From the NCBI GenBank assembly GCA_024696725.1, contig JAILGO010000190.1, positions 1 through 17,803 of the forward strand: a stretch of 17,803 bases of DNA, in the 5' to 3' direction. Positions 1 through 16,533 of the stretch are shown here, in pieces. The notes beneath the pieces were generated by a model. It was given only the letters and a program-made list of their open reading frames with translations, was not told where the DNA came from and made no database searches. Every line of letters begins with the position of its first letter. Position 1 is the stretch's first letter. The position numbers and the translations under genes are program-made. This DNA is from Eubacterium sp. Its GTDB lineage: Bacteria > Bacillota > Clostridia > Oscillospirales > Acutalibacteraceae.

Positions 1-3000
1 ATAGTGAATATTAATTTCACACCGAGCCAGACGACGCTTCACATTCGTCCGTGGGCGTTCAATAACTGCTCGGGTACGACGTTTTATATAGATATCCCCG
101 CGAACGTAAGGTATATAGACGACCACGCCTTCTGGGGAACGAACTTTAATTACAATACGATTAACTGCGCCGACTGCGCAATCGGCGAGGACGCCTTCGG
201 AAACGGCGAGGGCGGCTACGCGCGCTTCTTCGCGCCGGGCGGCTCTCAGACCACGGCTTATACCTGGGTAAAGAGCAACCGCGAAAATAACGAATATAAC
301 TGGTGGTATTACTGTAAAAACGACGCTCATACCTACTCTTCGGTAACGGTCGCTCCGACCTGTACCGAGCAGGGCTGCGACGAGTACGGCTGTATTTACT
401 GCGACGCGGAAAAACAGAAGAGCAACTTCGTCCCCGCGCTCGGACACAGCTATCGCTTTACGGGAAATACGAGCCTTACGCTTCACTATACCTGCGCCCG
501 CTGCGGCGAAACAAGATTTACCTACAGCGCGATAGATACTCTTTCGGGCTTCACCTTAAGCTCGACCGCGGGTAATACAAAATTCCTTCAGAGCGACTAT
601 GACGGAAGGGCGGACCTCGACGTTAACGGCGTCGTCAACGCAAAGGATTTCGTGCTTCTGCGCGATATTCTCGCTTCGCCCGACCTTACCGGTAAGGAGA
701 CGACCTTCGATATCTCAACCTCCTATCAGACTATCGACGGCTTCGGCGCTTCGGCGGCGTGGTGGTCTCAGGACGTCGGAACGTGGGAGAACGCCGAGGA
801 TATTATCAGGCTCCTCTATTCAGAGGACGAGGGAATAGGTCTTAATATCTACCGCTACAATCTCGGCGGCGGCTCGGAGGACCAGCAGGATTATAATCTC
901 TACGTCGCGGGAGCAAGAACGCATTGCTTTATGAACCCCGATAAAACCTATAACTGGAATAACGACGCGGGCGCAATGAACGCTCTTTCGATTGCGAACA
1001 GGCTGAACCCGAATTTAAGAGTTACGCTGTTTGCAAACTCCGCGCCGTACTTTATGACCAAAAACGGAAAAACCTACGGCGCTCTCGTAGATAACGGACA
1101 GGGCGGCTATAAGGGAAGCGAAAACCTCGATTCCTCAAAATTCCAGGACTACGCCGACTATATCTCCGAATGCGCTTCGCACTTTATCGGCGAGGGCTAT
1201 AACGTTACCTCGGTATCGCCGATTAACGAGCCCGAATGGGACTGGTCGGGCTGGTACAACGGCGACGGCACTCAGAGCTCAAATCAGGAAGGCTGCCACT
1301 TTGACGAGGGTACGGCAAGATATTTCTATAATAACTTTATGGTGCCGAGCCTGCGCTCACGCTCCGAGCTTAACGGAAAGGTTGAGCTTGAGGTCTGGGA
1401 GAGCGGTCAGATGAATCACAACTGGTGGTGGACGCGCTTCCTTAACGAGTGCTTCTCGAAGAACTCAAGCTATTCCTCAAATAACGCCAACATAAGAAGC
1501 TACGTCGATACTGTCGCGACTCATTCCTACTGGGCGGGACAGGACGCAAGAGAAGCGGTCGCCGCACAGGTAAGAGGAAGCGATTACGGCCAGGGCTTCC
1601 GCTGTACCGAATACTGCCAGATGGACAGCGACGTGACTACCAACGTCCTCGGACATATTCAGGCGGAGGGCATACATACTAACGGTATGACCATAGACTA
1701 CGGCCTTGCGCTTGCGGATACAATCTATCAGGATATGACTATTCTCAACGCGAAGGAGTGGGACTGGTGGACAGCCTGCGGACGCGGAATCTATCCCGAC
1801 AGCCTTGTTTATATCAACGACACAAACCACGACCACATTGAAACTTCGAAACGCTTATGGTGTATGGGTAACTATTCTAAATTCATAAAAGAGGGCGCTA
1901 AGAGAATAGCCGTTACCAAGGGAGCGGCACTCGGCTCTCAGCTTGTAACGAAGCCCGAAAACATATTTACATGGACGAGCGGTGAAAACTCGGGAACGGA
2001 TAAATATAATTATCTCGATTGCTCGGCTTATCAGAATCCGAACGGCGATATCGTAATCGTGTATGTCAATAACTCCGATACGATTGAATATACCTGCTTT
2101 ACCGACAGTAATAATTACAGCGGCTTCGATACCTACGTAACCGACGCGTCGCGCGACCTCGAAAACGTCCAGACGGGAAATATCGGCGACCCCGTTTGTA
2201 TTCCCGCAAGGTCGGTAACTACCGCCGTGTTATACTATAAGGGCGCTCCCGCCGAATCAAAGAGCGGCGCGTACCTGTTTACCTATTTCACGGGCAACGC
2301 GAGAAATGAGCAGACTATTCACTTTGCCGTTTCAAAGGACGGATATAACTATACTCCGCTTAACTCAAATAACGCCGTAATTACTCAGCAGCTCGGAAGA
2401 CAGTGCTGCCGCGACCCGTATATCTTTAAGGGACAGGATAATTATTATTATCTTATCGCAACCGATATGGACGCCTCGACGAATCAGTGGTGGGGTAACA
2501 GCAACACTATGGTTCTCTGGCGCTCAACCGACCTCGTTAACTGGACCGACGAAACGATAATCAATATGAGCAATATCACGGGCGCCGACGATATTCAGCG
2601 CTGCTGGGCGCCTCAGGTTCTCTGGGACGAGGAGGAGCAGAAGTATTTCGTTTACTTCGGTCTCGCCTCGTGGAGCGTAACTCAGAACCTTACGGTTATG
2701 TATTACTGCTATACCGACGATTTGCTCGACGAGTCGCATTATTCCTATCCTCAGCTTCTCTATAAGCCCGAGAATAACAGCGACCTTAAGAACGCAATCG
2801 ACGGCGATATTATCTACGACAGCGAAAGCGACACCTATTATCTTTATTATAAGGACGAGGATAACGCGACAATCTGCTGGGTTAAGAGCAAAAACCTGAC
2901 GGGTCCCTATACCGACGCGACGAATCCTCAGAAGGTGCTTAATACCGATATCGGTCTTGAGGGCTGTAACTCGTTCTTCATTACGGGAACGAACACTCTC

Positions 3001-3183
3001 GTTATGCTTGCGGACGCTTACGGCGACGGCTACTTCGTAATGAATCAGTCGACCGACTTTGAGAATTTCTATCCCGTGCCGTCTACGGCGTTTACGATAA
3101 ACAACTGCCGTCCGCGTCACGGCTCGGTTATCCCGATTACGAATCAGGAATATAAGAGATTAGTTAATAACTTCGGAATTTAG
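1..3183 (+). CDS. Multidomain secreted glycoside hydrolase (LRR/BspA-like, half-dockerin, GH30, GH43), 5' partial
   Basis: The reading frame is open at the left edge, so the N-terminus and any signal peptide lie outside; numbering here counts from the GTG at 4. Residues 1-100 resemble BspA-type leucine-rich repeats. Residues about 108-175 are Cys-rich with several CxxC pairs. Residues 204-215 form a dockerin-type calcium loop (D204, D206, N208, N212, D215), but only one repeat is present. Residues about 233-750 look like GH30: the 'DGFGAS' strand, NEP with E409 as likely acid/base, CTEY with E536 as likely nucleophile, then a beta-domain starting near 'GNYSKFIKEG'. Residues about 755-1055 look like a GH43 five-bladed propeller: RDPY with D804 as likely base, D933 or D935 as pKa modulator, and E986 in 'LEGCN' as likely acid. 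The pair suggests attack on arabinose-, galactose- or xylose-containing polysaccharides; exact substrate cannot be read. It ends TAG, 12 bases before metY. Confidence 0.85.
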   Translation: MVNINFTPSQTTLHIRPWAFNNCSGTTFYIDIPANVRYIDDHAFWGTNFNYNTINCADCAIGEDAFGNGEGGYARFFAPGGSQTTAYTWVKSNRENNEYNWWYYCKNDAHTYSSVTVAPTCTEQGCDEYGCIYCDAEKQKSNFVPALGHSYRFTGNTSLTLHYTCARCGETRFTYSAIDTLSGFTLSSTAGNTKFLQSDYDGRADLDVNGVVNAKDFVLLRDILASPDLTGKETTFDISTSYQTIDGFGASAAWWSQDVGTWENAEDIIRLLYSEDEGIGLNIYRYNLGGGSEDQQDYNLYVAGARTHCFMNPDKTYNWNNDAGAMNALSIANRLNPNLRVTLFANSAPYFMTKNGKTYGALVDNGQGGYKGSENLDSSKFQDYADYISECASHFIGEGYNVTSVSPINEPEWDWSGWYNGDGTQSSNQEGCHFDEGTARYFYNNFMVPSLRSRSELNGKVELEVWESGQMNHNWWWTRFLNECFSKNSSYSSNNANIRSYVDTVATHSYWAGQDAREAVAAQVRGSDYGQGFRCTEYCQMDSDVTTNVLGHIQAEGIHTNGMTIDYGLALADTIYQDMTILNAKEWDWWTACGRGIYPDSLVYINDTNHDHIETSKRLWCMGNYSKFIKEGAKRIAVTKGAALGSQLVTKPENIFTWTSGENSGTDKYNYLDCSAYQNPNGDIVIVYVNNSDTIEYTCFTDSNNYSGFDTYVTDASRDLENVQTGNIGDPVCIPARSVTTAVLYYKGAPAESKSGAYLFTYFTGNARNEQTIHFAVSKDGYNYTPLNSNNAVITQQLGRQCCRDPYIFKGQDNYYYLIATDMDASTNQWWGNSNTMVLWRSTDLVNWTDETIINMSNITGADDIQRCWAPQVLWDEEEQKYFVYFGLASWSVTQNLTVMYYCYTDDLLDESHYSYPQLLYKPENNSDLKNAIDGDIIYDSESDTYYLYYKDEDNATICWVKSKNLTGPYTDATNPQKVLNTDIGLEGCNSFFITGTNTLVMLADAYGDGYFVMNQSTDFENFYPVPSTAFTINNCRPRHGSVIPITNQEYKRLVNNFGI

Positions 3184-7502: not shown

Positions 7503-8510
7503 TTATAAAAGCATTGAAATTAAATCCAGAACGATGTACGCGGCAATCGGCGCAAGAATAGTCGTACCGCCCTTTTTAGCGAGATAGAGGCGCTTTATGC
7601 CGTCTCTGTCAAGGCTTGCTTCAAGCGGGTCCCCGCCTGCCGAGGCGTTAAATTCAGCGCCGTTTTCAAGCTGCTCGTTTACGCTTTTTATAAACGAGGT
7701 CACCGTCATCTTATAGGAGTAGTCCGCAAGCAGGGCGCAGCCCAGCGCAACAATCAGCTTTAACGCGAAAACAGCGAATACTATCATGCTGAATTTCTGA
7801 AAATCAGCCATACCCTGAATCTCGTTAAGCCTGTTAAGAAGCTCATTCTGATTGCTCATCGGGTTCATAGTCGCAAGTCCCGATATCGCGTTGTAGGTAA
7901 GCGGAGCGAGCTTCATTGAAAGAAATGTAAGAAGGCTCGAAAGCGAAATGTTTATACAGAAAAGCGTAATCGCCTGCTTATACATCTTTCTGAAAAAGAA
8001 ATAGTACATACCGAAAATAAACGCTCCCCAGTTCCAGCCGAGCTTTTTGCCGCTCTGCTCCTGCGCCTTGAATACGCTGATAAAGCGCGCCGTGTTGGTT
8101 CTTACCGTGCTGGCTATATCGCCGAGGCTCTCGCCGTTTACCGTGTAAGTATCGCTGTCGTACGGCGTGCGCGTAAAAGCGGAAAGGTCGGGCGCGCCGA
8201 AGGGCGTAAAGCCTCTCGCGCCGTCGTTCTGCTCTCCTGCAGGCCCGGCTTTAGCGTCGGTATCCTCCTCTTCGCTGAAGTGAAATCTCTCACGGAGCTT
8301 CCTGTTAGCCTCCGTGTTTCTTATTTCCTCTCTGTGCTCGTCGTAGTAGCTGTAGCCCGACGGGTGAAGTCCTCTGTTTACGCAGTGACCGATAAGGTTA
8401 TAGCATTCCCTGTGGTGAGGCGTGCCGCAGTCCGGGCAGTAAACAATGTCGTCGCCCTCTTCAAAAAGCCTTTTGCACACGGGACAGCTCTGGTCTTTAA
8501 ATATGCTCAT
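7503..8510 (-). CDS. Prokaryotic RING finger (Prok-RING_1) plus DUF2628 membrane protein
   Basis: Three in-frame ATGs are possible (8540, 8513, 8510). GGGAG at 8521-8517 is six bases from the ATG at 8510 but only three from 8513, so 335 residues are used. Residues 9-43 hold C9, C12, C25, C28, H32, H33, C36 and C43, with 'EEGDDIVYCPDCGTPHH', the pattern of the Prok-RING_1 binuclear treble-clef domain. Residues 60-150 are charged and low complexity, probably a flexible linker. From 157 the 'KLGWNWGAFIFG' and 'RKMYKQA' segments match DUF2628; hydrophobic helices follow at about 179-199, 241-263 and 315-333. The protein is probably membrane-anchored with the zinc domain in the cytoplasm. RING-like domains mediate protein contacts, and in a few bacteria belong to ubiquitin-like systems, but no E1, E2 or ubiquitin-like gene is nearby. 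First gene of the galU-protease-tadA operon. Function unknown. Confidence 0.8.
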   Translation of the reverse strand: MSIFKDQSCPVCKRLFEEGDDIVYCPDCGTPHHRECYNLIGHCVNRGLHPSGYSYYDEHREEIRNTEANRKLRERFHFSEEEDTDAKAGPAGEQNDGARGFTPFGAPDLSAFTRTPYDSDTYTVNGESLGDIASTVRTNTARFISVFKAQEQSGKKLGWNWGAFIFGMYYFFFRKMYKQAITLFCINISLSSLLTFLSMKLAPLTYNAISGLATMNPMSNQNELLNRLNEIQGMADFQKFSMIVFAVFALKLIVALGCALLADYSYKMTVTSFIKSVNEQLENGAEFNASAGGDPLEASLDRDGIKRLYLAKKGGTTILAPIAAYIVLDLISMLL

Positions 8511-8545
8511 CATATTCTCCCGATAAAATAATTTAATCAAAGTAT

Positions 8546-8649: not shown

Positions 8650-9768
8650 ATGATTGTTTATGAAGAGCTGAAACAGCGCCTTACCGCGTTTGAGAAGGAT
8701 ATTACAAATCTCAGGGAAGCGCTGAATATTGAAAACGTGATAACGGAAATCGGCGAGCTTGAAGAGGAAAGCGGAAAAGCGGGCTTTTGGGACGATATGG
8801 AAAAGAGCCGTAAGACTATGCAGAAAATCGGCTCGCTCAAGGCGCGCGTTGCCTCCTGGGAATCGCTGAAAAACGATTACGAAGACGCGCTTTTAATGAT
8901 TGAAATGGCTGACGACGAGAACGACGAAAGCCTTGCAGACGACTGTACCGCCTCTGTTGACGAAATCGAAAAGCGCGTTGAGAGCCTTACTCTTTCTACG
9001 CTCCTCAGCGGCGAGTTCGACAGCTGTAACGCTATACTTACCTTCCACAGCGGAGCGGGCGGAACCGAGGCGCAGGACTGGGCTGAAATGCTGTTCAGAA
9101 TGTATAACCGCTGGGGCGAGCGCCACGGCTATAAGGTTTCGACTCTCGACTATCTTGACGGCGACGTCGCGGGCATAAAGAGCGCCACTATTCTTATCGA
9201 GGGCGAAAACGCTTACGGCTATCTCCACGGCGAAATGGGAATTCACCGCCTCGTGCGCGTTAGCCCGTTCGACTCCTCGGGACGCCGTCACACCTCGTTC
9301 GCCTCGCTTGAGGTTATGCCGGAAATCGACGACGACGTTGAGGTCGAAATCAGGGAAGAGGATATAAAAATGGACGTTTACCGCGCCTCCGGCGCAGGCG
9401 GCCAGAAGGTTAATAAAACCTCGTCGGCGGTACGTCTTACCCATATCCCGACGGGTATCGTAGTGTCCTGCCAGATTGAGCGCTCTCAGCATCAGAACCG
9501 TGAGGTCGCCATGAGAATGCTTAAGTCGAAGCTCGTTGAAATCAAGGAGCGCGAAAACCTTGAGAAAATCGAGGATATCAAAGGGGACCAGAAGGAAATC
9601 GCCTGGGGCTCCCAGATTCGCTCCTACGTCTTTATGCCGTATACTCTCGTAAAGGACCATAGAACGAACTACGAAATGGGAAATATCGCCGCCGTAATGG
9701 ACGGAGATATAGACGGCTTTATTAACGCATATCTTAAAATGAAAAGTATTGAAGGTAGTGATAACTAA
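8650..9768 (+). CDS. prfB: Peptide chain release factor 2 (single-frame, no programmed frameshift)
   Basis: A 372-residue class I release factor that reads UGA and UAA and triggers peptide release on the ribosome. The GGQ motif is G250-G251-Q252 in 'SGAGGQKVNKTSS'. The codon-recognition tripeptide is S205-P206-F207 in 'RVSPFDSSGRRH', which marks RF2; RF1 would have a PxT motif there. The N-terminal helical domain, starting 'MIVYEELKQRL', has normal length. Most bacterial prfB genes need a +1 frameshift at an in-frame UGA near codon 26. Here codons 22-26 read AGG GAA GCG CTG AAT in one open frame, so full-length protein is made directly. A weak CGGAG lies six bases upstream of the ATG. The stop overlaps the next gene as TAATG. 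Confidence 0.96.
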   Translation: MIVYEELKQRLTAFEKDITNLREALNIENVITEIGELEEESGKAGFWDDMEKSRKTMQKIGSLKARVASWESLKNDYEDALLMIEMADDENDESLADDCTASVDEIEKRVESLTLSTLLSGEFDSCNAILTFHSGAGGTEAQDWAEMLFRMYNRWGERHGYKVSTLDYLDGDVAGIKSATILIEGENAYGYLHGEMGIHRLVRVSPFDSSGRRHTSFASLEVMPEIDDDVEVEIREEDIKMDVYRASGAGGQKVNKTSSAVRLTHIPTGIVVSCQIERSQHQNREVAMRMLKSKLVEIKERENLEKIEDIKGDQKEIAWGSQIRSYVFMPYTLVKDHRTNYEMGNIAAVMDGDIDGFINAYLKMKSIEGSDN

Positions 9769-11593: not shown

Positions 11594-12574
11594 ATGATTT
11601 TTTCAAGAGATATCGGTATCGACCTCGGCACCTCGACCACCCTTGTAGCGGACAGAAAAGGGAATATTATCATGAAAGAGCCGAGCGTCGTAGCCGTTGA
11701 CGTAAAATCAAAGCGCGTTCTCGCTACGGGCGACGAGGCGAAGGGAATGATAGGAAGAACGCCGGGCTCGATAGTCCCCGTTATGCCTATCCGCTCGGGA
11801 GTTATCGCGGACTTCGATATGACCTCGGATATGCTGAGAAGCTTTATCAGCCGCGCAGGTAAAAACGGAATCGTAACTAAAACGAGAGTCGTTATAAGCG
11901 TTCCCTCGGGCGTTACCGAGGTTGAACGCCGCGCAGTTGAGGACGCGGTACGCTCCGCAGGCGCTCAGGAGGTTGAGCTGATTGAGGCTCCGATGGCGGC
12001 TGCTCTCGGCGCCGGACTTCCCGTGTACGAGGCTACGGGCTCGATGATTATCGACATCGGCGGAGGTACGTGCGACGTAGCCGTAGTATCGCTCGGCGGA
12101 ATCGCCTCCGTAAACAGCATAAGAGTCGGCGGCGAGTCTATGGACGAGGCTATAGTTGAGTATATGAAGAAGGAGCACAGCCTTCTTATCGGCGAAAGAA
12201 CCGCCGAAGATATTAAAATAAAAATCGGCTCCGCCGCAGAATACGACGGCGAGGCCGTTATGGAAATTAAGGGAAGAAGCCTTGAGGACGGACTTCCCGC
12301 GAGCGCCGAAATTTCGTCAGCCGATATCCGCGGCGTGCTTTCTGTACCCGTTAACGCGATTATCGGCACCGTTAAACAGACGCTTGAGGTAACTCTCCCC
12401 GAGCTTGCCGCCGATATTATGGACCGCGGCGTGTACCTCACGGGCGGCGCGAGCCGTCTTAAGGGACTTAAGGACAGGCTCGAAAGTGAAATTAAAATCC
12501 CGGTTATCGTTCCCGAATCGCCCGAGGAGTGCGTGGTAAAGGGAACCTCCGTAAAGTTAAGAAGGGCTAAGTAA
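11594..12574 (+). CDS. mreB: Rod shape-determining actin homologue MreB
   Basis: A 326-residue bacterial actin, slightly shorter than typical MreB (about 335-347). It forms membrane-bound filaments that direct lateral wall synthesis. ATP-site motifs are present: phosphate 1 'DIGIDLGTSTT' (6-16), catalytic E131 in 'IEAPMAAALG', phosphate 2 'IIDIGGGTCDVAVVS' (152-166), and the adenosine motif 'YLTGGASRLKGL' near 287-298, where most MreB proteins have a third Gly (GGG). The N-terminal 'MIFSRDIG' resembles the Mbl/MreBH 'MFARDIGIDLG' style, so the paralogue type (MreB or Mbl) is open; the operon position favours mreB. It has its own promoter and AGGAG. Its TAA overlaps the mreC ATG as TAATG. Confidence 0.94.
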   Translation: MIFSRDIGIDLGTSTTLVADRKGNIIMKEPSVVAVDVKSKRVLATGDEAKGMIGRTPGSIVPVMPIRSGVIADFDMTSDMLRSFISRAGKNGIVTKTRVVISVPSGVTEVERRAVEDAVRSAGAQEVELIEAPMAAALGAGLPVYEATGSMIIDIGGGTCDVAVVSLGGIASVNSIRVGGESMDEAIVEYMKKEHSLLIGERTAEDIKIKIGSAAEYDGEAVMEIKGRSLEDGLPASAEISSADIRGVLSVPVNAIIGTVKQTLEVTLPELAADIMDRGVYLTGGASRLKGLKDRLESEIKIPVIVPESPEECVVKGTSVKLRRAK

Positions 12575-13401
12575 TGAAGGATTTTTTCAGAAACACACGT
12601 TTTAAAATTGTCCTTTCCGTTGCGGCTCTGCTTCTTTTAGGCGCGCTTATCGCGGGAGCTGCGGGACACGGCGAGACCGCTCAGTCCGCAGTAGTCGGCA
12701 CGGTTTTCGCTCCGTTTCATTACGTCGCTAAAAAGGCAAGTGACGGGATTGACCGCGTTTTCGGAAATCTTAAGCGCGACGCCGAATACGAAAAGGAAAT
12801 AAAGAGCTTAAGGGACCAGCTTAACGACTATAAGTCGAAGCTTTCGGACTATGAAAATATAAAACGCCAGAACGAGCTTTATAAGGACTTTCTTGAACTG
12901 AAGGAGAAGAATCCCGAATTTAAATTCGAGGAGGCGAGCGTTATCGCGAGAGACAGCGCCGATATTTATAAATCCTTTACGATAAGCAAGGGCTCCGTAA
13001 ACGGTATAGAGGTCGGCGACGCCGTGCTTTACCGTAAGGCGCTCGTCGGAGTCGTTCAGAAGGTATATCCCGATTACAGCGTGGTAAGGACCGTGCTCGA
13101 CGCGGGCTTTAACGTCTCGGCTTACGAGCTCGTCTCTAACGAAATTTCTTACGTAACCGGCACGGCGCGGCTCGCGGGGGAGGGAAAGTGTAAAATGGCT
13201 AACCTCTCCTCGTCGACAAAGGTCGCTTACGGCTCGATAATCTGTACCGCGGGAATAGGCGGTACGGTTCCCAAAGGACTTGTAATAGGTACGGTATCCT
13301 CGGTTGAGGAGGAGAATACGGATATTTCCTCCTATGCGGTTATTACTCCCGAAGTATCGCCCGACGAAATAACAGACTGTATTGTACTTACCGACTTTTA
13401 A
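12574..13401 (+). CDS. mreC: Rod shape-determining protein MreC
   Basis: A 275-residue bitopic membrane protein of typical length. A short basic N-terminus ('RNTRFK') and one transmembrane helix (about 11-29) precede a coiled coil (about 67-110, with heptad-like 'EKEIKSLRDQLNDY'), then the two beta-barrel domains that bind PBP2. Family marks include 'GSVNGIEVGDAVL' followed by 'GVVQKVYPDYSVVRTVLD' and the late 'AGIGGTVPKGLVIGTVSSV'. The protein sits on the outer face of the membrane, polymerises, and activates the PBP2-RodA complex. Start overlaps the mreB stop; AAGAAGGG about 12 bases upstream may help. mreD starts two bases after its stop. Confidence 0.95.
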   Translation: MKDFFRNTRFKIVLSVAALLLLGALIAGAAGHGETAQSAVVGTVFAPFHYVAKKASDGIDRVFGNLKRDAEYEKEIKSLRDQLNDYKSKLSDYENIKRQNELYKDFLELKEKNPEFKFEEASVIARDSADIYKSFTISKGSVNGIEVGDAVLYRKALVGVVQKVYPDYSVVRTVLDAGFNVSAYELVSNEISYVTGTARLAGEGKCKMANLSSSTKVAYGSIICTAGIGGTVPKGLVIGTVSSVEEENTDISSYAVITPEVSPDEITDCIVLTDF

Positions 13402-13403
13402 CG

Positions 13404-13934
13404 ATGGAAACTGCCGAAAAGAAAAGTAAAATCAGATATGCCCTGTGGCTTGTAATGCTGCTTATCGCCGCCCTGCTTCAGAACGTCGGGGGACTTTTCC
13501 CCGAAATCGGAGGAGCGCGGTGCTTCCTTCTCATTCCCGTCTGCGTTATGCTCGGAATAAATGAGGACGAAAGAACCGCGGCTTTTATAGGCCTTTTCGG
13601 AGGCTTCCTGTGGGACAGCGTATGCTCGCGTCACACGGGCTTTAACTGCATATATCTGATGTTTATCTGTTTTATCGCGTCCTCTCTCGTTACCTATATT
13701 TTCCGTAATACTTTCATGACGGGCTTTATAGCTTGCGCGGGCGCGACGGTTTTATACTGCCTGCTTTACTGGCTGTTTTTTATACTGACTTCGGGCTCCG
13801 ACGGTGCGGGAACGGCGCTTTTGCGTTTTTATATTCCGTGCGCCGTTTATACCGTGGTTCTGACTCCGTTTATCGAGGCGCTCGTTATAGCGGTAAAAAG
13901 CAGAGCCCTCGGAACGAGACAGCTCGACGCATAG
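13404..13934 (+). CDS. mreD: Rod shape-determining membrane protein MreD
   Basis: A 176-residue integral membrane protein with about five hydrophobic helices. MreD is weakly conserved; the call rests on length, helices, the 'LLQNVGGLFPEIGGARCFLL' start, the 'GLFGGFLWDSVCSRHTGFN' segment that matches the conserved 'G...GLl.D' region, and its place between mreC and mrdA. It is thought to bridge MreB, MreC and PBP2/RodA. No Shine-Dalgarno precedes the ATG, which is two bases after the mreC stop, so coupled translation is likely. The gap to mrdA is 36 bases. Confidence 0.9.
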   Translation: METAEKKSKIRYALWLVMLLIAALLQNVGGLFPEIGGARCFLLIPVCVMLGINEDERTAAFIGLFGGFLWDSVCSRHTGFNCIYLMFICFIASSLVTYIFRNTFMTGFIACAGATVLYCLLYWLFFILTSGSDGAGTALLRFYIPCAVYTVVLTPFIEALVIAVKSRALGTRQLDA

Positions 13935-13970: not shown

Positions 13971-16010
13971 GTGGGAAAAATCTATAAAAGCGCAAGAACA
14001 ACCTTTGCGTTTATACTTATTATTGCGGTACTGCTCGGATTTTTATACGAGCTTTATGATATACAGATACGAAACCACGAGTTTTACGCGGCGCAGAATA
14101 ATACCGTAAAAACGTATACCGTTCCTCTTCCTGCCGCGAGAGGTGAAATCGTTGACAGAAACGGAACTCCGCTCGTAACAAACCGTCAGGGTAACAGCAT
14201 CGTGCTGAACGCGGCGTACTTTCCGCCGTCGGACGATAACGCCGAGCGTAACAGAATAGTGCTTAACCTCATTAAGCTTTTCAGAAAGCAGAACGAGGAA
14301 TACGTTCATAACCTTCCGCTGAAGCTGAAGGGCGGGAAAATAGCGTTCTTTACCAAAAAGGACGACGAGCGTTACGAATCTGCGATTAAAACGATGAAAA
14401 GCCGCGATATGTTTAATCTTCAGAGCTACGCCACCGCGCAGAACTGCTTCGACGCAATGGTTGAAAAATACGGGCTTGAGGATTACGTCAGAGCGGGCGA
14501 CGTAAAAACCGCGCTTGAAATAGGCAACGTCCGTTATGAGCTTACAAGGCTTCTCTTTTCGGTGTCGAACCCCGTGACGATTGCCGAGGACGTAAGCGAT
14601 AAAACCGTAGCGATAATTAAGGAAAACGCCGAAAGCTTCACGGGCGCCGACGTTAAGGTGGTCGCGTACAGAGAGTATGCCGACTCGAAGCTTGCTCCGC
14701 ACGTTATCGGTACGATAAGAAAAATCAACGCCGAGGAATACGCTGCGCTTAAAAACGAGGGCTACGGAATCAACGACGAAATCGGCGAGTCGGGAATAGA
14801 AGCGGCTATGGAGGCGTATCTCCGCGGCGTTCCGGGCGAGCTGACCGTTACTATCGACGGCGACGGAAGAGTTACCGAGGAGGTAACCAGGGAGCCTGCG
14901 CAGGGCGATACAATAGTGCTTACGATAGATAAGAATCTTCAGGCTCTTGCCCAGAAAAAGCTTGAACAAATCTGTAAAAGCGTCGACTACTTCCGCTCGA
15001 CGGGAGCCGTTGTCGTTGAAAACTGCAATAACGGCGAGGTGCTTGCCGCGGCGAGCTATCCCGCGTTTGATTTGAACGATTATTATAAAAAATACAACGA
15101 GCTTGTAAAGGACAGAAACACTCCGCTTTATAACCGCTTCGCTATGGGTACCTACGCACCGGGCTCAACCTTTAAGCCTATGATGGCTACGGCTGCGCTT
15201 CAGGAGGGCGTTATTACCGAAAATACCGTGTTTAACTGCGATAAGGTGTTTAAGGTAAGGGATATGGAGTTCAAGTGTACGGGCGAGCACGGCGGAGAAA
15301 ACGTAAGAACCGGACTCCGCGACAGCTGTAATATTTTCTTCTATAACTGTGCTACAAGACTCGGAATAGATAAAATGAATCTCTACGGCTCAATGTTCGG
15401 ACTCGGCGAAAAGACGGGAGTTGAAATTCCCGAGGCTAAAGGTATTCTTGCGGGTCCCGAATACAGAAAGCGCTTCGATATGCTCTGGCTTCCCGGCGAT
15501 ACGGTCCAGGCGGCTATCGGCCAGTCCGATAACCTTTTCACTCCGCTTCAGCTCTGTAATTACTGCGCTACCGTAGCGAACGGCGGAACGAGGTATCAGC
15601 TCCATTTCGTCAAGTCGCGTATATCGAACGCGACGGGAGTCGTAAGCGAAACGGGAACTAACGTAGTGAGAACTCTCGACGTGAGCCCGAAAAACATAAA
15701 AACGGTTCAGGAGGGTATGCGTATGGTTGCCCTCGAGGGCGGACCCGCATACGTTTTCAGCAGAATCGACACTAAGGTCGCCTGTAAAACGGGTACGTCG
15801 CAGGTCGTGGTTAAGGGAATAAAGCATAATAACGGTTTCCTCATTACCTACGCCCCTTACGACAACCCCGAAATCAGCGTTGCAACGGCTATCGAGCTTG
15901 CGGGCTCGGGCTCCTCAACGTCTCAGATTACCTCGTCCGTAATCGACTATTACTACTCTCATAACTCTAATGAGAAAAAGGCTCAGCAGGAGGGAACGCT
16001 GCTGAACTGA
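13971..16010 (+). CDS. mrdA: Penicillin-binding protein 2 (class B transpeptidase)
   Basis: A 679-residue class B PBP that cross-links peptidoglycan during elongation. Residues about 8-28 are the single transmembrane anchor. The pedestal/dimerisation region begins at 'PAARGEIVDRNGTPL' (about 53-67) and carries a long insert to about 300. The transpeptidase domain has the serine active site S399-T-F-K402 in 'APGSTFKPM', the SxN motif S452-C-N454 in 'DSCNIFFYN', and K606-T-G608 in 'ACKTGTSQ'. All catalytic residues are present. The start is GTG at 13971, supported by AAAGGAGG at 13957-13964 with six-base spacing. The operon position after mreD identifies it as PBP2 rather than the division enzyme PBP3/FtsI or SpoVD. 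No rodA follows within this window, although rodA or minCDE often do in related genomes. Confidence 0.94.
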   Translation: MGKIYKSARTTFAFILIIAVLLGFLYELYDIQIRNHEFYAAQNNTVKTYTVPLPAARGEIVDRNGTPLVTNRQGNSIVLNAAYFPPSDDNAERNRIVLNLIKLFRKQNEEYVHNLPLKLKGGKIAFFTKKDDERYESAIKTMKSRDMFNLQSYATAQNCFDAMVEKYGLEDYVRAGDVKTALEIGNVRYELTRLLFSVSNPVTIAEDVSDKTVAIIKENAESFTGADVKVVAYREYADSKLAPHVIGTIRKINAEEYAALKNEGYGINDEIGESGIEAAMEAYLRGVPGELTVTIDGDGRVTEEVTREPAQGDTIVLTIDKNLQALAQKKLEQICKSVDYFRSTGAVVVENCNNGEVLAAASYPAFDLNDYYKKYNELVKDRNTPLYNRFAMGTYAPGSTFKPMMATAALQEGVITENTVFNCDKVFKVRDMEFKCTGEHGGENVRTGLRDSCNIFFYNCATRLGIDKMNLYGSMFGLGEKTGVEIPEAKGILAGPEYRKRFDMLWLPGDTVQAAIGQSDNLFTPLQLCNYCATVANGGTRYQLHFVKSRISNATGVVSETGTNVVRTLDVSPKNIKTVQEGMRMVALEGGPAYVFSRIDTKVACKTGTSQVVVKGIKHNNGFLITYAPYDNPEISVATAIELAGSGSSTSQITSSVIDYYYSHNSNEKKAQQEGTLLN

Positions 16011-16067: not shown

Positions 16068-16119
16068 TTAGCTATATTAATTCTATTACCTTTGCAAATA
16101 TTTAGACAGGAGGGAAACT

Positions 16120-16533
16120 ATGAATATTGCATTAATTGCCCACGACGCTAAAAAAGAGCTCCTCGTTCAGTTCTGTATAGCATATTGCGGAATTATCAGC
16201 AGGCACGACGTCTGCGCTACGGGAACTACGGGTAAGCTCGTTAAGGAGGCAACGGGACTGAATATAAACTGCTTCCTCAGCGGTTCCCAGGGCGGCGGTC
16301 AGCAGATTGCGAGCCGTATCGCGTGTAACGAAATTGACCTTTTAATCTTCTTCCGCGACGCTCAGACCGCTAAACCGCACGAGCCCAACGACAGCGATTT
16401 ACTTCGCCTGTGCGATGTTCATAACATCCCGTTTGCGACTAATATCGCTACCGCCGAGGCGCTTATAAGAGGCGTTGAGCGCGGCGACTTTGAATGGCGT
16501 GAAATTGTTAATCCACGCTACAACAAGAAATAA
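16120..16533 (+). CDS. mgsA: Methylglyoxal synthase homologue lacking active-site aspartates
   Basis: A 137-residue protein, the same length as Bacillus subtilis MgsA and colinear with it. Methylglyoxal synthase turns dihydroxyacetone phosphate into methylglyoxal and phosphate. The phosphate site is kept: H8-D9, K12, and 'TGTTG' at 34-38. The loop normally 'SGPLGGDQQ' reads 'SGSQGGGQQ', so the position of the catalytic base (E. coli D71, B. subtilis D60) is G60, encoded GGT at 16297-16299. In 'PHEPND' the residue aligned with E. coli D101 is N90, although D91 follows; D80 and H87 (E. coli D91 and H98) are kept. It may be inactive, altered in chemistry, or a phosphate-binding sensor. Start is fixed by AGGAGG at 16108-16113. 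The symbol marks homology, not proven activity. Confidence 0.85.

Follow-up and report, generated by a model that had tools for sequence, protein, structure and literature searches.

The Pfam MGS family includes, besides methylglyoxal synthase (MgsA), the MGS-like domains of carbamoyl phosphate synthetase and PurH, which do not synthesize methylglyoxal. For MgsA of E. coli, Saadat and Harrison reportedly found in 1998 that mutants of D71 and D101 lose most of their activity. The residue roles used in the following are those given in two papers. According to these, H19, D71, and H98 are catalytic while D91 and D101 serve in substrate recognition (PMC1877815), and the numbering of MgsA from C. 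difficile (H8, D60, and H87) agrees with the one applied here (PMC7843640). MgsA-Crh regulation in B. subtilis is described for its effect in PMC12291648 and is cited by title in PMC7843640. Methylglyoxal, a toxic dicarbonyl, has attracted interest in gut-host chemistry (PMC12291648).

We analysed a stretch of 17,803 nucleotides ("the window") from Eubacterium sp. (family Acutalibacteraceae, order Oscillospirales, class Clostridia, phylum Bacillota) which carries a gene for an MgsA-derived protein. The gene, its relevant codons, and its neighbours are:

11594 to 13934, plus strand: mreB, mreC, and mreD, upstream, in a neighbourhood conserved in the genus (MreB_Mbl match for 11594–12571; mreC and mreD named from sequence and position)
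13971 to 16010, plus strand: PBP2-type transpeptidase gene (pbp2), immediately upstream (domain match)
16120 to 16533, plus strand: gene for the MgsA-derived protein, 137 aa, stop included (ORF call; TIGR00160, NF003559, and Pfam MGS matches)
16141 to 16146, plus strand: H8-D9 (E. coli H19-D20), kept (sequence, structure matches)
16150 to 16161, plus strand: K11-K12-E13-L14, near-invariant across the lineage (alignment of order copies)
16219 to 16233, plus strand: TGTTG phosphate loop (residues 34–38), kept in the window protein, changed in many order relatives
16297 to 16299, plus strand: codon 60, GGT, with Gly at the catalytic-base position (E. coli D71; sequence, structure matches)
16378 to 16380, plus strand: H87 (E. 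coli H98), kept in the window protein and in 35 of 143 copies of the order sample
16387 to 16392, plus strand: codons 90–91, Asn-Asp; Asn at the E. coli D101 position, followed by an acidic residue (sequence, structure matches)
16480 to 16500, plus strand: R121-G-D-F-E-W-R127, C-terminal motif (lineage consensus RGDLxWR), retained despite the loss of catalytic residues
16581 to 17803, plus strand: hisS, running past the window end (tRNA-synt_His match)

The frame at 16120–16533 starts with ATG and is preceded by a good ribosome-binding site, AGGAGG, at 16108–16113. Its product matches the Pfam MGS domain and passes both equivalog models, with 155.6 bits on TIGR00160 (cut-off 146.9) and 151.5 bits on NF003559 (cut-off 84). 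Several other genes of the window were noted in passing. The large protein encoded at 4–3183 carries a GH30 domain (235–603), a GH30 C-terminal domain, and a BspA-type leucine-rich stretch below the cut-off; by eye, a dockerin-like stretch and, at the C-terminus, a GH43-like part can be made out as well. The gene at 7503–8540 on the minus strand probably encodes a membrane protein, which has DUF2628 and, at its N-terminus, a prokaryotic RING finger domain. A peptide chain release factor (PCRF and RF-1 domains) is encoded at 8650–9768 in one continuous frame and looks like prfB without its usual programmed frameshift.

Residue numbering was fixed by equal-length matches to the solved MGS structures. 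Window residues 2–122 align with chain residues 13–133 of the E. coli protein (1b93), and residues 1–130 with 24–153 of the B. subtilis protein (6f2c), which equates G60 with E. coli D71, D80 with D91, H87 with H98, and N90 with D101. The equivalents of H19, D20, K23, the TGTTG loop, D91, and H98 are all present (H8, D9, K12, residues 34–38, D80, and H87). The Asp at the E. coli 71 position is absent (Gly60), as is the Asp at the 101 position (Asn90), for which the acid at residue 91 may stand in. A sequence-only reading of the gene had pointed to both replacements and to the retention of H8, D9, and the TGTTG loop; the sequence and structure matches confirm it in these respects. It had also taken the change of the neighbouring residues from GPLGGD to GSQGGG as a mark of a variant. 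Of these residues, Ser56 is unusual (residue 56 is Pro throughout the canonical set), but Q57 is no mark of decay because it is frequent in intact clostridial MgsA (SGPQGGDQQ).

Replacement of the catalytic base is uniform in the closest relatives of the window. The gene was matched in 78 of the 80 genus genomes searched. All 57 unique proteins of the genus and its nearest relatives (the genus set), which come from many separate assemblies, have Gly (54) or Ser (3) at residue 60, and so have all 59 unique genes of the genus and its near sisters (Gly in 56, Ser in 3). Counted by locus, 33 G and 1 S were found in 34 genus loci (out of the 78 genomes with a match), and 37 G and 2 S in 39 near loci from named records at 86% identity or more; the two locus sets overlap. 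The concordance of the 59 unique genes rules out a read error or local assembly fault at codon 60, and the earlier view that this is an evolved variant is borne out. Codon 60 is GGT in 24 of these genes, GGA in 19, GGC in 8, GGG in 5, AGC in 2, and AGT in 1. The use of all four Gly codons indicates that a small residue has been held at this site through silent changes. A gained acid near residue 60 was not seen in the copies of the genus and its near sisters.

Purifying selection maintains the gene in this set. The median dN/dS is 0.030 over those 123 of 1711 pairs which have a dS between 0.1 and 1.5, pairs outside this range having been left out (Nei-Gojobori counts, own script). Mean dN is 0.075 for the stretches 54–64 and 80–95 compared to 0.034 elsewhere, which is about twofold. 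The phosphate site is complete in 56 of the 57 unique genus-set proteins.

Asn90 has to be judged differently. From the rest of the family, 104 unique proteins were collected (a mixed sample which includes best hits as well as genomes chosen for low scores or two hits). Wherever position 90 is Asn or Ser in these (72 unique proteins), position 91 is Asp or Glu. The same pair occurs in 56 of the 57 unique genus-set proteins, and the remaining one has a different residue at 90 and an acid at 91. Asn90 is compatible with an intact base, since D60 is kept in 73 of the 104 proteins. By itself, Asn90 is no evidence of inactivity. It was set aside as a second telling mutation, being widespread in the family and paired with the acid at 91; what had been presented as a peculiarity of the window protein turned out to be ordinary in its family. 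Of the two changes, for which the sequence-only reading had asked whether they define a clade, Gly60 (rarely Ser) occurs in all copies read from the genus and its near sisters, and Asn90 is widespread in the family; both belong to a wider wear of the active site within the order. The suggestion of a shifted role for Asp91 is plausible in view of the constant acid at this position.

The extent of this wear was assessed in an order sample of 147 evenly drawn genomes which are at least 90% complete. With the window protein (P0001) as query, the gene was matched in 143 of them, and all 143 best copies were read. D60 is kept in 61, H87 in 35, D90 in 62, G35 in 71, and H8 in 109 copies; only 13 copies have all four of H8, D60, H87, and D90. 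Residue 60 is D in 61, E in 27, A in 13, S in 11, I in 9, G in 6, M in 4, V and N in 3 each, L and T in 2 each, and Q and H in 1 each. The phosphate site is complete in just 48 of the 133 unique order-sample proteins, so phosphate binding, which together with binding of dihydroxyacetone phosphate had been suggested as a possibility for the window protein, is unlikely to be a function common to the whole lineage. On a tree built without the active-site columns, parsimony requires 25 changes of the D60 state; loss counts are rough only, the tree being weakly resolved (100 columns, 83 of 143 inner branches unsupported). Independently of the tree, D60 and non-D60 copies were found together in 10 of the 46 families and in 3 of the 163 genera that were read.

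Intact sites prevail outside the order. The phylum comparators are 28 copies, from 28 of 60 matched genomes (the best 30 loci minus our own and that of one same-order genome), and these have D60 in 27, H87 in 28, and D90 in 28 cases. The lone D60 exception (L173) is a window-type copy in a genome which also holds an intact copy. For other orders of the class, 44 copies from 120 matched genomes were read (the 24 best loci and 20 picked from lower-ranking ones); all four catalytic residues are present in 28 of them and D60 in 37, which means that residue loss also occurs in other orders of the class. Six lineage copies from other families were scanned with the equivalog models. Five of these reach or exceed the NF003559 cut-off of 84, and none passes TIGR00160 (72 to 129.5 bits, cut-off 146.9). 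Residue 60 is I, G, S, and D, respectively, in four of the scanned copies, and L243, L249, and L254, which have Ile, Gly, or Ser at the base position, still pass NF003559, NCBI's model for methylglyoxal synthase.

Despite this wear, the gene is kept almost everywhere. It was not found in 4 of the 147 order genomes and in 7 of 300 family genomes; several of these are small or incomplete, and two (G395 and G486) are 97% complete. With the same query, matches were obtained in 129 of 196 genomes of a class sample (E 1e-8) and in 60 of 149 genomes of a phylum sample (E 1e-10). The gene seems to come closer to universality in groups with a worn active site than in those with an intact one; as a caveat, the query comes from the order, which may partly account for the wider presence there. 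Two unusual forms were noticed in the course of this survey. Extreme copies, with TGTTG and often H8/D9 changed, occur in genomes of 0.9–1.4 Mb from genera g33, g41, and g86 of the family (L285–L289). In one genus genome, G005, the gene (C18:16203–16901, minus strand) matches in two pieces (residues 1–68 and 60–136) which are about 265 bases apart within a 234-codon frame; this looks like an in-frame insert.

Some genomes carry a canonical copy in addition to a worn one. For the genome of the window, the sequence-only reading had proposed a search for a second mgsA with intact GGDQQ. None was found in this genome (G000), which is about 93% complete: P0001 gave a single match, and the MGS-domain search gave only the window gene and a match within a 1068-codon frame taken as carB; a purH MGS domain was not found. 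Two matches were obtained in 38 of 53 family genomes that had been picked for two hits or low scores. In one of these (G331), both copies are of the window type. Second copies were read from 20 of the other 37 and, in addition, from 7 genomes of the order sample and 1 of another class order, which amounts to 28 pairs (one of which combines two genomes of one genus). All 28 second copies have H8, D60, H87, and D90 intact, and each of the 28 paired window-type copies lacks at least one of these residues. D60 is missing from 17 of these paired copies; 10 differ from canonical MgsA only by N90, where the adjacent acid may compensate, and one (G217) differs only at position 87.

Constraint has shifted within the protein. 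In the 130 worn order copies, positions 5, 8, 52, 60, 61, 68, 77, 86, 87, 88, 90, 94, 95, 101, and 103 are freed relative to canonical copies, and these are mostly within or near the active site. Near-invariant in the worn copies are K11, K12, E13, L14, C19, A21, Y22, H29, E71, D73, C98, D99, P104, A106, T107, N108, E113, G122, W126, and R127; when weighted, C98, D99, T107, E113, and G122 are invariant while W126 and R127 are kept in about 94%. Canonical clostridial MgsA retains E113, G122, W126, and R127 to the same degree, whereas canonical MgsA from elsewhere does not. The full set of positions shared in this way by worn and canonical clostridial copies is 1, 21, 22, 33, 113, 119, 122, 126, and 127. 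That KKEL and RGDLxWR came up only when catalysis was lost was considered and rejected, canonical clostridial copies already having RGDLxWR and mostly KKE. The pattern of positions would fit a second function that is older than the loss, and oligomer packing could leave the same trace; hexamer assembly may be all that the conserved non-catalytic positions are needed for.

The gene is the ortholog of clostridial mgsA at a conserved locus, with pbp2 or a MinD-like gene upstream and hisS downstream in most loci. In the genus and its near sisters, the gene order is mreB-mreC-mreD-pbp2-gene-hisS. Among the 39 near loci, pbp2 is directly upstream in 37 and the other two have no upstream frame in the stretch; hisS is the first or second downstream frame in 36 of them and in 67 of 112 order loci. 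Many loci from other orders of the class have a rodA-like or minD-like frame ahead of the mgsA homologue (by eye and by MinD-like protein match).

With a catalytic residue lost in all sampled members of the genus, sites worn in many relatives within the order, and the gene kept almost everywhere, the protein probably has another job. We therefore favour, with a probability of roughly 0.64, a catalytically dead MgsA lineage which purifying selection retains on account of a second, non-catalytic function that predates the loss. The protein has retained the MgsA sequence core and, in the genus, the phosphate pocket, and has lost the general base which abstracts the C3 proton of dihydroxyacetone phosphate. 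To judge from the lost residues, it would no longer be a methylglyoxal synthase. The second function would most likely be a protein-protein contact via the conserved positions outside the active site, including the C-terminal RGDLxWR. Intact clostridial MgsA probably already had this function, which would have survived the repeated loss of catalytic residues. In the genus of the window, bound phosphate or triose phosphate could still be a ligand signal.

The last point leads to a special form of this explanation, a ligand sensor which binds phosphate or triose phosphate without turnover and signals to a partner. The MGS-like domains of carbamoyl phosphate synthetase, which relay the allosteric effector state, provide a precedent, and apart from residue 60 the pocket is conserved in the genus set. 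The incomplete phosphate site of most order proteins, however, would limit sensing to this and perhaps some other groups, and we regard the sensor as a tentative proposal with the odds against it. The same well-kept pocket, together with the passing of both equivalog cut-offs, could mean residual or altered catalysis. The protein might then still be a methylglyoxal synthase, with Asp91 replacing D101 and another group or a water molecule serving as base in place of D71. The retention of H8, D9, K12, TGTTG, D80, and H87 and the constant pairing of N/S90 with an acid at 91 are in favour of such a rearranged enzyme. However, residue 60 is Gly or Ser in every copy of the genus and near sisters that was read, with no acid gained nearby, and its 13 states across the order include no single conserved replacement; moreover, the active-site loops evolve at about twice the mean dN of the rest even among the genes of the genus and its near sisters. 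We thus consider continued catalysis in the window protein improbable. For part of the lineage this may be different: given the 61 order copies with D60 and the 10 paired copies which differ only by N90, some members may still be enzymes. Slow decay of a useless enzyme, with near-universal presence reflecting a mere lag, would account for an active site worn in many ways and for the few genomes without the gene. It is hard to reconcile with a dN/dS of about 0.03, with the four Gly codons at site 60, and with the invariant non-catalytic residues of the worn copies, and is the least credible of the explanations considered.

The gene neighbourhood may be historical, but one reading takes a partner from it. 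In 86 of 112 order loci and 30 of 41 family loci, the mgsA homologue is immediately preceded by a gene for a MinD-like ATPase, with a median gap of 38.5 nt between the two (124 loci). The ATPase scores 140–232 bits on TIGR01968 (cut-off 212.9; 1 of 4 tested passes) and has a short C-terminal tail after G-x-x-V-P-L (median 6 aa, 103 measured). MinC_C and MinE exceed their cut-offs in none of the 147 order genomes (matches below cut-off in 6 and 3, respectively), compared to 6 and 3 of 14 control genomes. The proteins, exemplified by L340:2209–2970 and L104:5222–5965, look like an orphan MinD lineage with a short C-terminus in these 147 genomes devoid of MinC_C or MinE above the Pfam cut-off. 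It could be imagined that, in an order lacking recognisable MinC and MinE, the MgsA-derived protein and this ATPase together make up a reduced positioning system. However, the genus of the window keeps the gene, and a MinD-like ortholog was not found there at E 1e-12 in three genomes (G000, that of the window, G034, and G041), nor was a MinD-like gene next door in any of the 39 near loci. In 51 genus genomes, the matches listed are weak (22–36% identity, at best 66 bits), apart from one 50-residue piece at 47% identity. Conversely, the MinD-like protein was matched in 5 of the 11 genomes where the mgsA homologue was not found, and in three of these five (G486, G395, and G363) no MgsA-like frame was seen by eye beside the MinD-like gene. 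The pair is thus common, not obligate; the ATPase is not supported as an obligate partner, and a dedicated two-component system is quite unlikely. Somewhat less unlikely, though still speculative, is a broader scenario in which clostridial MgsA at the mre-pbp2-min-rodA locus was bifunctional, being an enzyme and also tying triose-phosphate or phosphate status to elongation or division; the gut order would have lost the enzyme repeatedly while holding on to the second function, with some members having a separate true MgsA.

A dead MgsA lineage would matter for annotation. A major order of gut Clostridia has genomes annotated as methylglyoxal makers on the strength of a window-type gene, and if the worn copies are inactive, much of the order is wrongly predicted to make methylglyoxal. 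The lineage also lends itself to a natural experiment on whether a classic bypass enzyme has a hidden second function, with some genomes holding an intact copy as well as a worn one. A description of such a worn MgsA lineage was not found in the open PMC literature, as searched by titles and abstract starts.

Compared to the described enzymes, the window protein is colinear over nearly its whole length with MgsA from E. coli (1b93), B. subtilis (6f2c), and C. difficile (PMC7843640). It differs from these by Gly at the D71 position and by Asn followed by Asp at the D101 position, and many of its orthologs in the order lack further catalytic residues. Unlike the MGS domains of carbamoyl phosphate synthetase and PurH, which are parts of larger enzymes, it is free-standing and MgsA-derived. 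For a regulatory protein contact on MgsA, the B. subtilis MgsA-Crh case provides a precedent. The closest counterpart is canonical clostridial MgsA encoded at a rodA/minD locus (L398, L402, L403, and L428), which is 64–72% identical to the window protein. The two share the kind of locus, the RGDLxWR C-terminus, and mostly the KKE start, whereas GGDQQ and HEPD are kept in canonical clostridial MgsA and not in the window protein.
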